Below are positions 2,520-64,000 of a stretch of DNA of 64,000 nucleotides, one piece after another. The DNA is from Hoyosella levis. Its GTDB lineage: Bacteria; Actinomycetota; Actinomycetes; Mycobacteriales; Mycobacteriaceae. Position 1 is the stretch's first letter, and each line of letters opens with the position of its first letter. Below the pieces are notes generated by a model. That model was given only the letters and a program-made list of their open reading frames with translations, was not told the origin of the DNA and ran no database searches. Where the stretch lies: NCBI RefSeq assembly GCF_026008515.1, contig NZ_BQYM01000006.1, positions 62,001 through 126,000 of the forward strand, read 5' to 3'. The translations under genes and the position numbers were made by a program.

Positions 2520-3914
2520 CTACCCCCGCGCCATATCGACGAAGCGGGAGTAGTGGAGCTGGTGAGCGACAGTGATGGTGGCGGTAGGGCCCGCACGGTG
2601 CTTGCCGATGATGATGTCGGCCTCGCCGCCGCGGGGGTCATCGGGCTCGAACGCATCGGGGCGGTGGAGCAGGATGACCATGTCCGCGTCCTGCTCCAGG
2701 GAACCCGATTCGCGCAGGTCGGAGACTTGCGGCTTCTTGTCGGCACGTTGCTCGGGACCACGGTTGAGCTGGCTGATGGCGATGACAGGAACCTCGATCT
2801 CCTTCGCGAGGAGCTTGAGGCTGCGGGAGAACTCGGAGACTTCCTGCTGCCGTGATTCAACCTTGCGCCCGGAGCTCATGAGCTGCAAGTAGTCGAGCAC
2901 GATCAGCTTGAGGTCGTGCTTCTGCTTGAGCCGGCGGGCCTTGGCGCGGATCTCCATCATGGTGAGGTTGGGCGAGTCGTCGATGAACAGGGGCGCCTCG
3001 CTGATCTCGCTCATGCGGCGGGCAAGCCGGGTCCAGTCGTCGTCGGTCATGCGGCCGGACCTCATGTCGGCGAGCTTGATCTTCGATTCGGCCGAGAGCA
3101 GTCGCATGACGATCTCGGTCTTGCTCATCTCGAGCGAGAACACTGCGCTCGCCATCCCGTGCTTGATGGAGCACGAGCGCAGGAAGTCCATGCCGAGAGT
3201 GGATTTACCCACGCCGGGCCGGGCGGCGATGATGATCATCTGCCCGGGGTGCAGGCCGTTGGTGAGCTCGTCGAGCTCGACGAATCCTGTGGGCACGCCG
3301 AGGGACATGCCGCCGCGGGAGGCGATGGAGTCGATCTCGTCCATGGTGGGCTGCAGGAGTTCCTCGAGCGCGACATAGTCCTCGGTGGTGCGACGCTCGG
3401 TGACCTCGAAGATCTCGGCCTGGGCGCGGTCGACGATGGCGGCGACGTCTTGCCCCTCGCTGCCGGTGTAGCCGTACTGGACGATGCGCGTGCCCGCTTC
3501 GACGAGTCGGCGGAGGATGGCTTTCTCGGCGACGATCTCGGCGTAGTAGCCAGCGTTGGCCGCAGTAGGAACGGTCGAGATGAGGGTGTGCATGTAGGGG
3601 GCGCCGCCGATGCGCCGGAGATCGCCGCGACGCTCGAGCTCCGCAGCGACAGTGACGGGGTCGGCTGGTTCGCCGCGCGCGTAGAGGTCGAGGATGCAGT
3701 CATACACATCCTGGTGGGCCGGCCGGTAGAAGTCCCCGGGGCGGAGCCGCTCGATGACGTCGGCGATGGCGTCCTTGCTGAGCAGCATTCCGCCGAGCAC
3801 GGCTTGCTCGGCGCCGAGATCCTGGGGCGGCTGGCGGAAGTGGTCGTCGCCGGGCCCGTGGTCATTGGCGGGGCCGTGGTCGCTAGTGCGTGGTGCCCGG
3901 TCGTCCGCGGCCAC
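2520..3914 (-). CDS. dnaB: Replicative DNA helicase DnaB
   Basis: 464 residues. DnaB unwinds DNA as a hexamer at the replication fork and interacts with primase. The N-terminal helicase domain is about 30-135 (LGAEQAVLGGML). The RecA-like ATPase follows, with Walker A ARPGVGKST near 231-239, Walker B LIVLDYLQLM and the C-terminal DLRESGSLEQDADMV and GGEADIIIGKHR segments. The length is that of an ordinary DnaB, so there is no intein, unlike some mycobacterial DnaB proteins. GTG start at 3914 with AGGAGG upstream. It lies at the end of a minus-strand replication/ribosome group but is separated from rplI by 500 bp containing DnaA-box-like sites and the rplI terminator, so it is probably transcribed from its own promoter. 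Confidence 0.98.
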   Translation of the reverse strand: MAADDRAPRTSDHGPANDHGPGDDHFRQPPQDLGAEQAVLGGMLLSKDAIADVIERLRPGDFYRPAHQDVYDCILDLYARGEPADPVTVAAELERRGDLRRIGGAPYMHTLISTVPTAANAGYYAEIVAEKAILRRLVEAGTRIVQYGYTGSEGQDVAAIVDRAQAEIFEVTERRTTEDYVALEELLQPTMDEIDSIASRGGMSLGVPTGFVELDELTNGLHPGQMIIIAARPGVGKSTLGMDFLRSCSIKHGMASAVFSLEMSKTEIVMRLLSAESKIKLADMRSGRMTDDDWTRLARRMSEISEAPLFIDDSPNLTMMEIRAKARRLKQKHDLKLIVLDYLQLMSSGRKVESRQQEVSEFSRSLKLLAKEIEVPVIAISQLNRGPEQRADKKPQVSDLRESGSLEQDADMVILLHRPDAFEPDDPRGGEADIIIGKHRAGPTATITVAHQLHYSRFVDMARG

Positions 3915-4058
3915 TGGTGCCTCCTGAGGGTGGTGCTGGCTCGGTGCGGCGTGGATGCCGCGTTCTTGTTGTACCGCTTTGGTCCGACGGTTGCGAGGGT
4001 GTGCCGCGTGTCGGATTCACGGACCCGGACGAGTCTCAAGCATGACGTGAGAGTTGCC

Positions 4059-4359
4059 TGTGCACAGTTCTGTGCATAACCCTGTGGATAGTTGGGGATA
4101 TCTTGTGAACAACCTGTGGACAGTTTCGGGAGCCAGGAGAAGGATGGGCGAATAACACCAGCTCACACTGCACTTTTTGGCTGTGCACACTGTGGACAAC
4201 GCTGTGCACGGCGTGTCGCCAGATTGTGATTCCTGGCGTGTCGCACCGTGTTGTGCGTTAGCTATCCACGCGCTGTTTGCCACCTCGCCACCTTTTCGTG
4301 GCGCTGGGGAATGTTCCTCGCCTAGTTCCCCAAGTTATCCACAGGACACTTGTGGACAA
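4059..4359. promoter_or_regulatory. Cluster of DnaA-box-like sites upstream of dnaB
   Basis: Perfect 9-mers are TGTGGACAA at 4191-4199, TTATCCACA at 4335-4343 and TGTGGACAA at 4351-4359. Near-matches are TGTGCATAA 4071-4079, TGTGGATAG 4083-4091, TTGTGAACA 4103-4111, TGTGGACAG 4115-4123 and TGTGCACAG 4059-4067. Together they occupy most of the gap between dnaB and rplI. The vocabulary is the same as in the oriC at the right end. DnaA binding here could regulate dnaB or titrate DnaA. Confidence 0.75.
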
Positions 4360-4367
4360 CTACACGT

Positions 4368-4400
4368 CTAGCCCCAGGGGTCGAGGACCCCTGGGGCTAG
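4368..4400 (-). terminator. Perfect hairpin ending the rpsF-rplI operon
   Basis: Inverted repeat with 15-bp perfect arms (CTAGCCCCAGGGGTC at 4368-4382 and its complement at 4386-4400) around a 3-nt loop, 15 bp beyond the rplI stop. No strong U-run follows, which is common in actinobacterial terminators. Confidence 0.85.
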
Positions 4401-4415
4401 GCGCTATCTGCTATG

Positions 4416-4868
4416 TCAGGCAGGCACGATACTGACGTTCAGCCGGGCTGACACCTTGGAGTGCAGACCGACAACGATGATGTACTTGCCAACCGACTTG
4501 ATGTGCGCTGAAGGCATTTCGACGTTGCGCCGATCCACCGTGGGACCACCGGCCGACTTGATAGCCGACACGATGTCCGAGGCTGCGATCGAACCGAAGA
4601 GCTTGCCACCCGCGCCGGTGCGAACCGGAATCGTGATGGCGCCGATCTTCTCCAGCGTCGCCTTGGCTTCCTCGGCGATGTCAAGGTCGCGGGCCGCGCG
4701 TGACTCACGGGCCTTGCGCAGCTCCTCAACCTGCTTCTCGGCGCCACGGGTGGCGCGGATTGCGAGTCCTCGCGGAAGCAGGTAGTTACGGCCGTAGCCG
4801 TCCTTGACCTCGACGGTGTCGCCAGGAGCGCCAAGGTGCTCAACTTCAGCGGTGAGGATGAGCTTCAT
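4416..4868 (-). CDS. rplI: 50S ribosomal protein L9
   Basis: 150 residues, the standard L9 length. The N-terminal RNA-binding domain shows MKLILTAEVEHLGAPGD, VKDGYGRNYLLPRGLA, followed by the long connecting helix (about 42-75) and the C-terminal domain (KLFGSIAASDI). L9 binds 23S rRNA domain V near the L1 stalk. It is the last gene of rpsF-ssb-rpsR-rplI, 19 bp after rpsR, and is followed by a perfect hairpin. ATG start at 4868. Confidence 0.98.
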   Translation of the reverse strand: MKLILTAEVEHLGAPGDTVEVKDGYGRNYLLPRGLAIRATRGAEKQVEELRKARESRAARDLDIAEEAKATLEKIGAITIPVRTGAGGKLFGSIAASDIVSAIKSAGGPTVDRRNVEMPSAHIKSVGKYIIVVGLHSKVSARLNVSIVPA

Positions 4869-4887
4869 TCTATTGTCCTCCCGTTCC

Positions 4888-5124
4888 TTAGCGTGCCGTC
4901 GAGGTGTACGGCAGCAGGGCCATTTCTCGTGAAACTTTGACTGCGGCAGCCACGTCCATTTGATGCTGGACGCAGGTGCCAGTGACCCGGCGTGCCCGGA
5001 TTCGTCCGCGATCGCTGACGAATGTCCGGAGCAGTGCCGCATCCTTGTAGTCGATGCGGGCTCCCGCCGGGGCGCAGAACACGCATGACTGTTGTGTTGT
5101 CATACGCAAGCGTGCGTGGGACAT
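4888..5124 (-). CDS. rpsR: 30S ribosomal protein S18
   Basis: 78 residues with the S18 core [32 protein letters not shown] and the end [10 protein letters not shown]. The CVFC pair plus the later GTC cysteine suggest the zinc-binding (C+) form of S18 rather than the cysteine-free paralogue induced on zinc limitation. S18 pairs with S6 (rpsF, same operon) on the small-subunit platform. Start ATG at 5124 with GGAGAAAG upstream; a second in-frame ATG seven codons on is an alternative. Confidence 0.96.
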
Positions 5125-62067: not shown

Positions 62068-62212
62068 ATCGGTATCGCGCGCAAGCACCACTCTGATCAG
62101 CTAGTTCTCACTCTCGGATCATGCAATGTGCTCCGCGGTACCCCAGGTCTGCATGCCTTGTGCGCATCACCTGAGGACCATCGTGCAGGACGAGCAGCGG
62201 AAGGACTTGAGC

Positions 62213-63778
62213 GTGGTGGATGATCCACGGAACCTCACCGAGATCTGGATGAGCGTGGTCGAGGAGCTCATCGAGGGCACCGGCCCCGGCGCCCGGCCCA
62301 CGATGCTCGGCAGGAAGGATCGCGCGCTCCTGCCGCTGGTGAAACCGCTGGACATCTCCAATGGATTCGCGCTGCTCGCCGCACCGACCGCATTCGCCAA
62401 GAAGGCGATCGAGAGCAACCTGCGGCACATCATCACCGAGACGCTGAGCCGGCACCTGGGGGAGCCGATCGAGCTGGCTGTCCGCATCGATGCGACCAGC
62501 GTCGACCCAGCCGCCTTGACCGAGACCCTGGACGAGAGCGACGAGGAAGCACCGCGCTCGGCAGCGCCGGAGCCGGAATATGCGCTGGGAGACGTTGACG
62601 ACGAGCCACCGATGTCCGGCGAGACGTTCCTGCAGCGGGAGGATTCCACGCTCCGCGACGAGCCCGGCGGGTTCGGGCACGAGGAGTCCGCGTGGTCCGC
62701 TGCATACACGACAGGTGGGCCAAGGCCGCCCCGCCCAGTATCGCCACGATCGAGCCTGAACCCGAAGTACACCTTCGACACCTTTGTCATCGGCGCGTCC
62801 AACCGGTTCGCGCACGCCGCGGCGGTGGCGATCGCCGAGGCACCGGCCAGGGCCTACAACCCCCTGTTCGTCTGGGGCGAGTCAGGCCTGGGTAAAACTC
62901 ACCTCCTGCACGCCACTGGGCATTACGCGCAGAAGCTCTTTCCTGGAATGCGCGTCAAGTATGTGTCCACGGAGGAATTCACGAACGATTTCATCAACAG
63001 CTTGAGGGACGACCGCCGGGTTGCGTTCAAGCGGCGCTATCGGGATGTTGATCTCCTCCTCATCGATGACATCCAGTTCATCGAGAACAAGGAGGGGATC
63101 CAGGAGGAGTTCTTCCATACGTTCAATACGCTGCACAACGCCAACAAGCAGATCCTCATCTCATCCGATCGTCCGCCCAAGCAGCTCGCCACTCTCGAGG
63201 AGAGGCTGCGCACCCGATTCGAGTGGGGCCTGATCACCGATGTCCAGCCGCCGGAGCTCGAGACCCGCATCGCTATCCTGAGCAAGAAGGCGCAGATGGA
63301 CCGGCTGCGGGTCCCGGACGACGTGCTCGCGTTCATCGCTAGCCGGGTCGAGCGCAACATCCGCGAGCTCGAGGGGGCGCTGATCCGGGTCACTGCCTAC
63401 GCCTCGCTCAACCAGCAACTGATCGACCTGCGCCTCGCGGAGATCGTCCTGCGGGATCTCGCGCCTGATTCACGCAGCCTGGAGATCACCGCGGCCACGA
63501 TCATGACCACGGTCGCCGAGTACTTCGGCATCACGATGGACGAGATGTGCGGGCCAGGACGCACCCGGGCGGTCGCGCAGGCCCGCCAGATCGCGATGTA
63601 CCTCTGCCGGGAGCTGACCGACCTTTCACTGCCCAAGATCGGCCAGGCATTCGGCCGCGACCATACGACCGTGATGCATGCCGACCGGAAGGTCCGCTCG
63701 GGCATGAATAGCAATCGCAGCGTCTACGAGCAGGTCCAGGAGCTCACGGCCCGGATCCGGCAGCGGTCGAAGATCTAG
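62213..63778 (+). CDS. dnaA: Chromosomal replication initiator DnaA
   Basis: 521 residues. Domain I about 1-85, an acidic linker (85-180), the AAA+ domain with Walker [10 protein letters not shown] near 222 and Walker [12 protein letters not shown] near 280, and the DNA-binding domain IV with [10 protein letters not shown]. Very close to mycobacterial DnaA from [18 protein letters not shown] on. Start GTG 62213, AAGGA 7 nt upstream; the frame is open earlier to 62126 without homology. Confidence 0.98.
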
Positions 63779-64000
63779 GCCTCGACACTGCCAACCGGTT
63801 GAGCATGCCTCCACAGGTTGTCCACAGGAGGTCGGATCTTGTGGACAACCTGTGGATAACACCGCTCGACCCTTGTGCACAACTTGGGGATAAGCTGTGG
63901 ATAAGCTGTGCACAACTTGGCTGGTTACCCACAGGCCACGAAGTTGTACACATTCGTCCACATCTAGGCCCCCATCTATTCACACCCTTGTCCCCATCCA
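63779..64000. other. oriC: Replication origin oriC (partial)
   Basis: Downstream of dnaA, dense with DnaA boxes: TTGTCCACA 63818-63826, TTGTGGACA 63839-63847, TGTGGATAA 63851-63859 and 63896-63904, TTGTGCACA 63873-63881, TGTGCACAA 63907-63915, TTACCCACA 63925-63933 and TTGTACACA 63944-63952. The window stops before dnaN, so the origin is incomplete. Start of bidirectional replication. Confidence 0.93.

Follow-up and report, generated by a model that had tools for sequence, protein, structure and literature searches.

Why should a dense cluster of DnaA boxes lie directly upstream of the gene for the replicative DNA helicase, outside oriC? The first-pass annotation of this locus in Hoyosella levis had offered three functions for the cluster, i.e., control of dnaB by DnaA, titration of DnaA in the manner of datA, or a role as a former or secondary origin. 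Here we ask how the boxes are arranged, how far they are conserved, and to which neighboring gene they belong.

An Array of DnaA Boxes Lies between dnaB and rplI

The window, i.e., the whole stretch of 64,000 nucleotides that was analyzed (G000:C6:62001-126000), is part of a 3.61-Mb draft genome. On its minus strand lie dnaB, encoding the replicative DNA helicase (2520..3914; 464 amino acids, GTG start; TIGR00665 DnaB, 533 bits, cut-off 385), and rplI, encoding ribosomal protein L9 (4416..4868; TIGR00158 L9, 123 bits, cut-off 58.6). The dnaA open reading frame, whose true start is perhaps further downstream, is on the plus strand at 62126..63778 (TIGR00362 DnaA, 511 bits, cut-off 344). It is followed by oriC, the gap from 63818 to 64000 that runs past the window end and that served as the comparison region. 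The dnaB-dnaA distance is 58 kb; the original estimate had put the cluster about 60 kb from oriC.

The dnaB-rplI gap contains nine DnaA-box positions, of which five are exact matches to TTRTNCACA and four have one mismatch; the earlier description of three perfect boxes and at least five near-matches was right in substance. From the dnaB side, the boxes on the minus strand are CTGTGCACA at 4059..4067 (one mismatch, near-palindromic and kept in the genus), TTATGCACA at 4071..4079 (exact), CTATCCACA at 4083..4091 (one mismatch), TTGTTCACA at 4104..4112 (exact), CTGTCCACA at 4115..4123 (one mismatch), GTGTGCACA at 4182..4190 (one mismatch) and TTGTCCACA at 4191..4199 (exact). Beyond these are an exact TTATCCACA on the plus strand at 4335..4343 and a second exact TTGTCCACA on the minus strand at 4351..4359. 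The near-palindromic boxes also give overlapping calls on the opposite strand. Between the array and rplI, an inverted repeat read from the sequence (ctagccccagggg...cccctggggctag, 4368..4400) is a possible rplI terminator, with no clear T-run and no call in the terminator scan. An RNA element in the gap was rejected: the sole Rfam hit, to mir-645, is weak (E 0.28; 22.6 bits, where the gathering score is 90) and was ascribed to chance.

Box density in the gap was above background. In the window, TTATNCACA has six matches against 0.18 expected, a number reached in 0 of 100 shuffles, and two of the six are in the dnaB-rplI gap. Genome-wide there are 69 TTRTNCACA sites compared with 15 for a reversed-pattern control, and five of the 69 fall within 289 bp of this gap. 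When site calls at ≤1 mismatch were counted in 350-bp windows across 185.5 kb of contig C6 (palindromes being counted on both strands), the best windows held 17 (oriC), 13 (dnaB-rplI gap), 5 (upstream of dnaA), 4 and 3 calls, whereas the reversed-pattern control reached a maximum of 2. Apart from oriC, no other stretch of the 185 kb examined is as dense in DnaA boxes.

Box pairs were also seen elsewhere in the genome. Immediately downstream of crgA, outside the window, two exact copies of TTATCCACA stand 13 bp apart where the next ORF begins (L205:1553-1574; C6:147053-147074); this ORF had no family hit. We take Rv0011c of Mycobacterium tuberculosis to be crgA. Two exact copies 19 bp apart are upstream of a second SSB gene (NCBIfam/Pfam SSB; L209:1994-2021; C4:9293-9320), and two more are in the divergent gap between ssd, encoding a septum site-determining protein, and a gene for an HAD-IB hydrolase (L211:2007-2033; C8:110506-110532). 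Four DnaA-like sites occur in 84 bp at L212:1975-2058 (C6:185375-185458), apparently within a 452-codon ORF.

The Array Is Conserved in the Genus and in Most of the Class

Within the genus, conservation is higher in the boxes than in the sequence around them. When three members are compared, invariant columns number 83 out of 85 in the boxes and 302 out of 419 in the rest of the gap (Fisher p = 7e-9); adding a more distant fourth member brings these counts to 67 of 85 and 172 of 419 (p = 2e-10).

Across wider groups, the array was scored as present when the 700 nt preceding dnaB held at least three boxes at ≤1 mismatch. It was found in 4/4 genomes of the same genus, in 29/33 of other genera of the family and in 19/23 of other families of the order, where one genome (G059) had no usable dnaB. 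In other orders of the class it was present in 18 of 26 usable genomes, a rate that may be somewhat high because sampling was confined to the best DnaB matches, which covered 29 of 56 class genomes (three of them too short). The 26 genomes (of 55) with the best DnaB matches in other classes of the phylum gave 3 positives. Patchy presence outside the class is possible because these three genomes reach exactly three sites each, with two exact boxes in two of them. Box totals against control totals were 50/3 in the genus, 181/24 in the family, 107/21 in the order, 97/15 in the class and 25/11 in the phylum.

By the one-mismatch rule, the loci with fewer than three boxes were L015 (0), L022 (1), L115 (2) and L128 (2) in the family, L141 (0), L023 (1), L028 (2) and L140 (2) in the order, and 8 of 26 in the class. 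M. fortunisiensis (L044) had no box by the same rule, and degenerate TCCACA words persist there and in the four low-count family loci. When aligned and counted across relatives, as the first-pass annotation had suggested, the array proved to be kept in the genus and in most of the class members sampled. Of the two outcomes that the annotation had named as refuting, box density at the genome background and lack of conservation in relatives, neither was observed. The array probably goes back to an early ancestor of the Actinomycetes, as the explanation favored below has it.

The Boxes Stay with dnaB

We profiled exact boxes around dnaB in 75 named loci, which span Nocardia to Streptomyces and Cellulomonas (28 of the 75 being Streptomyces). 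Their density was 6.67 per kb at -400..-200 from the extrapolated dnaB start and 1.47 per kb at -200..0; in none of the remaining 200-bp bins, over a span of about 11 kb, did it exceed 0.33 per kb. Five of the 80 named loci (L054, L058, L064, L067 and L075) were left out of the profile, having no box within 700 nt and no rplI, and were taken as second copies; they have two one-mismatch sites at -800..-600.

In 40 named loci (27 of them Streptomyces), rplI is more than 1.5 kb from dnaB. The 600 nt upstream of dnaB in these loci contain 77 exact boxes and 227 boxes at ≤1 mismatch (control 22), whereas the 600 nt downstream of rplI contain no exact box and 9 at ≤1 mismatch (control 1). Where rplI sits elsewhere, then, the boxes stay with dnaB.

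The five left-out loci are extra dnaB copies in five genomes, one of them on plasmid pPSED02 of Pseudonocardia dioxanivorans. In four of these genomes the rplI-linked dnaB has 2, 2, 4 and 6 boxes (controls 1, 0, 1 and 0) together with a RACACGCC pair (described below), whereas the second copies have neither boxes nor the pair in the 700 nt upstream. In the fifth (L064) the rplI-linked dnaB is a fragment without the N-terminus.

The array was also followed as the distance of dnaB from dnaA varies. In 29 genomes (G000 and 28 others) this distance ranges from 22 to 439 kb, and at least four sites are kept in 27 of them, the exceptions being G031 (2 sites) and G117 (1 site against a control of 3). 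The distance is 22-144 kb in 23 of the 29 and 226-439 kb in six; the latter have 4-7 sites each with controls of 0-4, the highest control being in G037 (6 sites against 4).

Geometry of the Array and the dnaB Promoter

Spacings between boxes on the same strand peak at 11-12, 21-24, 32-34 and 42-45 bp. The boxes are oriented predominantly toward dnaB (507:187, i.e., 507 of 694 calls), some of the opposite-strand calls being palindromes counted twice. For the geometry of box and promoter, near-duplicates were thinned to 139 loci, of which the 116 with at least three boxes were counted. In 81 of these 116, the last box is followed within 60 nt by a promoter of the form TKK-N19..21-TANNNT, compared with 2.6 expected from single-base shuffles. 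The TANNNT element is offset from the last box by 25-34 nt in 60 cases, 40-44 nt in 17 and 50-54 nt in nine, the two longer offsets appearing as if one or two extra degenerate boxes intervened. In most loci with a recognizable promoter, the boxes end upstream of the -35 region rather than over the promoter.

This common geometry is not visible in the genus to which the window belongs. In Hoyosella no TANNNT promoter is recognizable after the last box, and a sigma70 promoter scan of window positions 3850-4900 found none. The only recognizable promoter in the genus is a putative one of the PafBC kind, read by eye on the minus strand at 3968..3989, some 70 nt from the last box on the dnaB side (CGTCGGAC-N8-TACAAC); the match is loose, and its GTCRG core and TA(C/G)AAC element are kept in four genus members. 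Promoters of the PafBC kind are also termed "RecA-NDp." The PafBC motif is given as TGTCGG-N10-TANNNT in the accessible part of PMC8151990. Strict PafBC-like motifs are present within 350 nt of dnaB in 47 of the 139 thinned loci and LexA-like boxes in 28, compared with one and none, respectively, in the next 350 nt. Loci of Mycobacterium and Pseudonocardiaceae (L036, L041, L051, L042, L056 and L048) have LexA-like boxes (CGAAY-N4-GTTCG) close to the start of dnaB, and many other loci have PafBC-like promoters. From these motifs, dnaB looks DNA-damage-inducible, by different routes (LexA-like or PafBC-like) in different lineages. In M. tuberculosis, induction of dnaB by mitomycin C is partly PafBC-dependent, and there is a putative SOS box upstream of the gene (PMC8151990, accessible part).

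A RACACGCC Pair Accompanies the Array

Upstream of the seven proximal boxes is a pair of RACACGCC motifs separated by 17 nt (4210..4242, minus strand), the only match to RACACGCC-N15..23-RACACGCC in the genome. A pair is found 299-518 nt upstream of the dnaB match in 29 of 37 family genomes (G000-G036). The genomes lacking a pair with this spacing are G005, G006, G007, G011, G029, G032, G035 and G036; of these, G029 carries a pair with a spacer of 8 nt and G032 one with an imperfect second half. When any spacer of 4-60 nt was allowed, 67 of 196 dnaB loci had a pair, with spacers of 8-9 nt (4 loci), 17-20 nt (62) or 27 nt (1), i.e., in steps of about one helical turn.

We rejected the idea that the pair is the operator of a regulon, there being by the strict pattern one match in this genome and 16 matches elsewhere in the same 37 family genomes. 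WhiA, whose motif in Streptomyces is GACAC (PMC3781837, accessible part), is one candidate for the protein that binds the pair, although it is only a lead: the pair is absent from 28/28 Streptomyces dnaB loci, and the word "dnaB" does not occur in the accessible text of PMC3781837. FtsR was discarded as a binder, its motif, as given in the accessible part of PMC6683498, not matching the pair. A literature search returned nothing on ACACGCC with the dnaB promoter in Mycobacterium. We put forward, tentatively and at somewhat less than even odds, a composite switch operating across the class, in which the ancestral DnaA array acts by feed-forward and to which Mycobacteriales and Pseudonocardiales would have added a second DNA-binding factor, essentially dedicated to dnaB. 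In such a switch the array would raise the supply of helicase when active initiator is present, and the putative second factor would recognize the RACACGCC pair, with its helical spacing, which lies upstream of the boxes nearest the promoter. The pair is a concrete operator, nearly confined to a single locus, and its binder could be found.

Probable Control of dnaB by DnaA and the Alternative Explanations

The reading that we favor, with a probability of about 0.7, is that DnaA controls the dnaB promoter through this cluster, an arrangement ancestral to the class, and thereby stimulates transcription of the helicase gene. DnaA would bind boxes that are mostly co-oriented and helically phased, about 11 bp apart. 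In roughly half of the loci, the last of these boxes ends 25-34 bp upstream of the -10 element of a dnaB promoter of the sigma70-like kind. From the upstream side of the promoter, DnaA at the array would stimulate dnaB transcription, the promoter-proximal molecule presumably contacting RNA polymerase, and the supply of helicase would thereby be coupled to active initiator. Of the three functions proposed in the first-pass annotation, it is control of dnaB that is supported by the linkage to dnaB, by the promoter geometry in the class and by published mycobacterial data. The phasing of boxes and promoter does not by itself give the sign of regulation; we infer that it is activation, so that the DnaA site upstream of dnaB would be regulatory and probably activating. 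By analogy, DnaA control of dnaB would act likewise in Hoyosella levis.

A cluster produced by chance, or by the composition of an AT-richer intergenic gap (AT 0.42 compared with about 0.30-0.38 in 5-kb bins of the contig), has a negligible probability. The reversed pattern occurs once in the 700 nt preceding this dnaB and at most twice per 350 bp in the contig, and these controls together with the shuffles rule out a chance origin; the array is, moreover, conserved through the class, with boxes better conserved than spacers. Hardly more probable is a secondary or former replication origin, which the likeness of the box words and their density to those of oriC had brought to mind. The highest AT content over 40 bp is 0.57 in the dnaB-rplI gap, compared with 0.80 in oriC, and with that maximum there is no AT-rich DNA-unwinding element beside the dnaB boxes. 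A simple scan for (TA[CG])3 found no DnaA-trio in the gap, TACTACTACTAG occurring only at oriC. This trio-like sequence is at C6:126058 (window 64058, just beyond the end), with an adjoining AT-rich stretch as the likely oriC unwinding element, which the end of the window cuts off. The cumulative GC-skew curve has no inflection at dnaB (near C6:66 kb), although skew is weak throughout and uninformative even at oriC. AT content, the missing trio and an array that moves with dnaB and is promoter-phased all speak against a secondary origin, which we rejected; this part of the first-pass annotation found no support.

Titration deserves more weight, although as the main function we regard it as unlikely. 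On this explanation the cluster is a datA-like, origin-proximal sink that takes up DnaA once replication has duplicated it early and that limits re-initiation, its place beside dnaB being incidental. The function of datA depends on its origin-proximal position, the timing of its dosage being important; its loss raises the frequency of initiation, and it acts by IHF-dependent hydrolysis of DnaA-ATP. Titration by dense boxes near the origin has been reported for Escherichia coli (PMC12371093, accessible part), and a sink is consistent with the rank of this cluster, second in density to oriC in the contig examined, and with its distance from dnaA, which is 22-144 kb in 23 of the 29 genomes. However, clusters remain at 226-439 kb in the other six, and the boxes follow dnaB rather than rplI and are promoter-phased, none of which a pure sink needs. 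Titration as the main function is disfavored because the far clusters persist and the geometry is tied to the dnaB promoter; it may, nevertheless, coexist with control of dnaB as an additional effect, and to that extent the datA-like proposal survives as a possible side effect. Less probable still is repression of dnaB by DnaA in a negative-feedback loop like the one that acts on dnaA itself in some bacteria. Either activation or repression can result from DnaA boxes close to a promoter, and in this genus the array abuts no recognizable promoter, so that looping or occlusion is possible. Against repression, the boxes end upstream of -35 in most loci with a recognizable promoter, and a DnaA mutant of M. 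tuberculosis with less binding has lower, not higher, expression of dnaB (PMC7738170, accessible part).

Comparison with Known Systems

DnaA binding upstream of dnaB is already known in mycobacteria, and the Hoyosella levis array is probably a further example. According to the accessible part of PMC7738170, IDAP-seq in M. tuberculosis gave five top DnaA-bound regions in vitro, i.e., oriC, Rv0010c-Rv0011c, Rv0057 (upstream of dnaB), Rv3843c-RVnc0040 and rpmH-dnaA, and ChIP-seq in M. smegmatis found homologs of the same five bound in vivo. The mutant referred to above combines less binding upstream of dnaB with under-expression of the gene, a correlation from one allele. The site in Hoyosella levis resembles that at Rv0057 in its gene and in its position upstream of dnaB (PMC7738170, accessible part), and the genome has boxes at four of the five published positions (oriC, upstream of dnaA, upstream of dnaB and beside crgA). 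By position, the crgA-adjacent box pair is the counterpart of the Rv0010c-Rv0011c site, mutations in which have been linked to isoniazid resistance (PMC7738170, accessible part). The array differs from the mycobacterial site in belonging to another genus and in having more and stronger boxes, with five exact ones compared with 0-1 in ten rplI-linked loci of the Mycobacterium group. In the open-licence literature searched, there was no report of class-wide conservation, promoter phasing or the RACACGCC pair.

Homologs of known DnaA regulators or helicase loaders have not been identified in mycobacteria or in a number of other bacteria (PMC5720831, accessible part). If the array acts across the class, the initiator would control both the opening of the origin and the supply of the helicase that it recruits, and the conserved architecture (boxes, promoter and RACACGCC pair) offers direct targets for testing.

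DnaA likewise binds upstream of dnaB in Caulobacter crescentus (cited in the accessible part of PMC7738170), a member of a distant phylum, unlike the actinomycete array; because most genomes sampled from other classes of Actinomycetota lack the cluster (3 of 26 have it), we infer that the two sites arose independently. Our box counts place the Hoyosella levis array among the DnaA-box clusters that lie outside oriC. In Streptomyces coelicolor, clusters flanking oriC are likewise extra-oriC clusters in an actinomycete, and they reportedly affect the frequency of replication. The accessible text of PMC13270200 contains nothing on extra-oriC boxes. With datA of E. coli, the array shares the clustering of DnaA boxes outside oriC; unlike datA, it is tied to a promoter and to dnaB, and it persists far from oriC.
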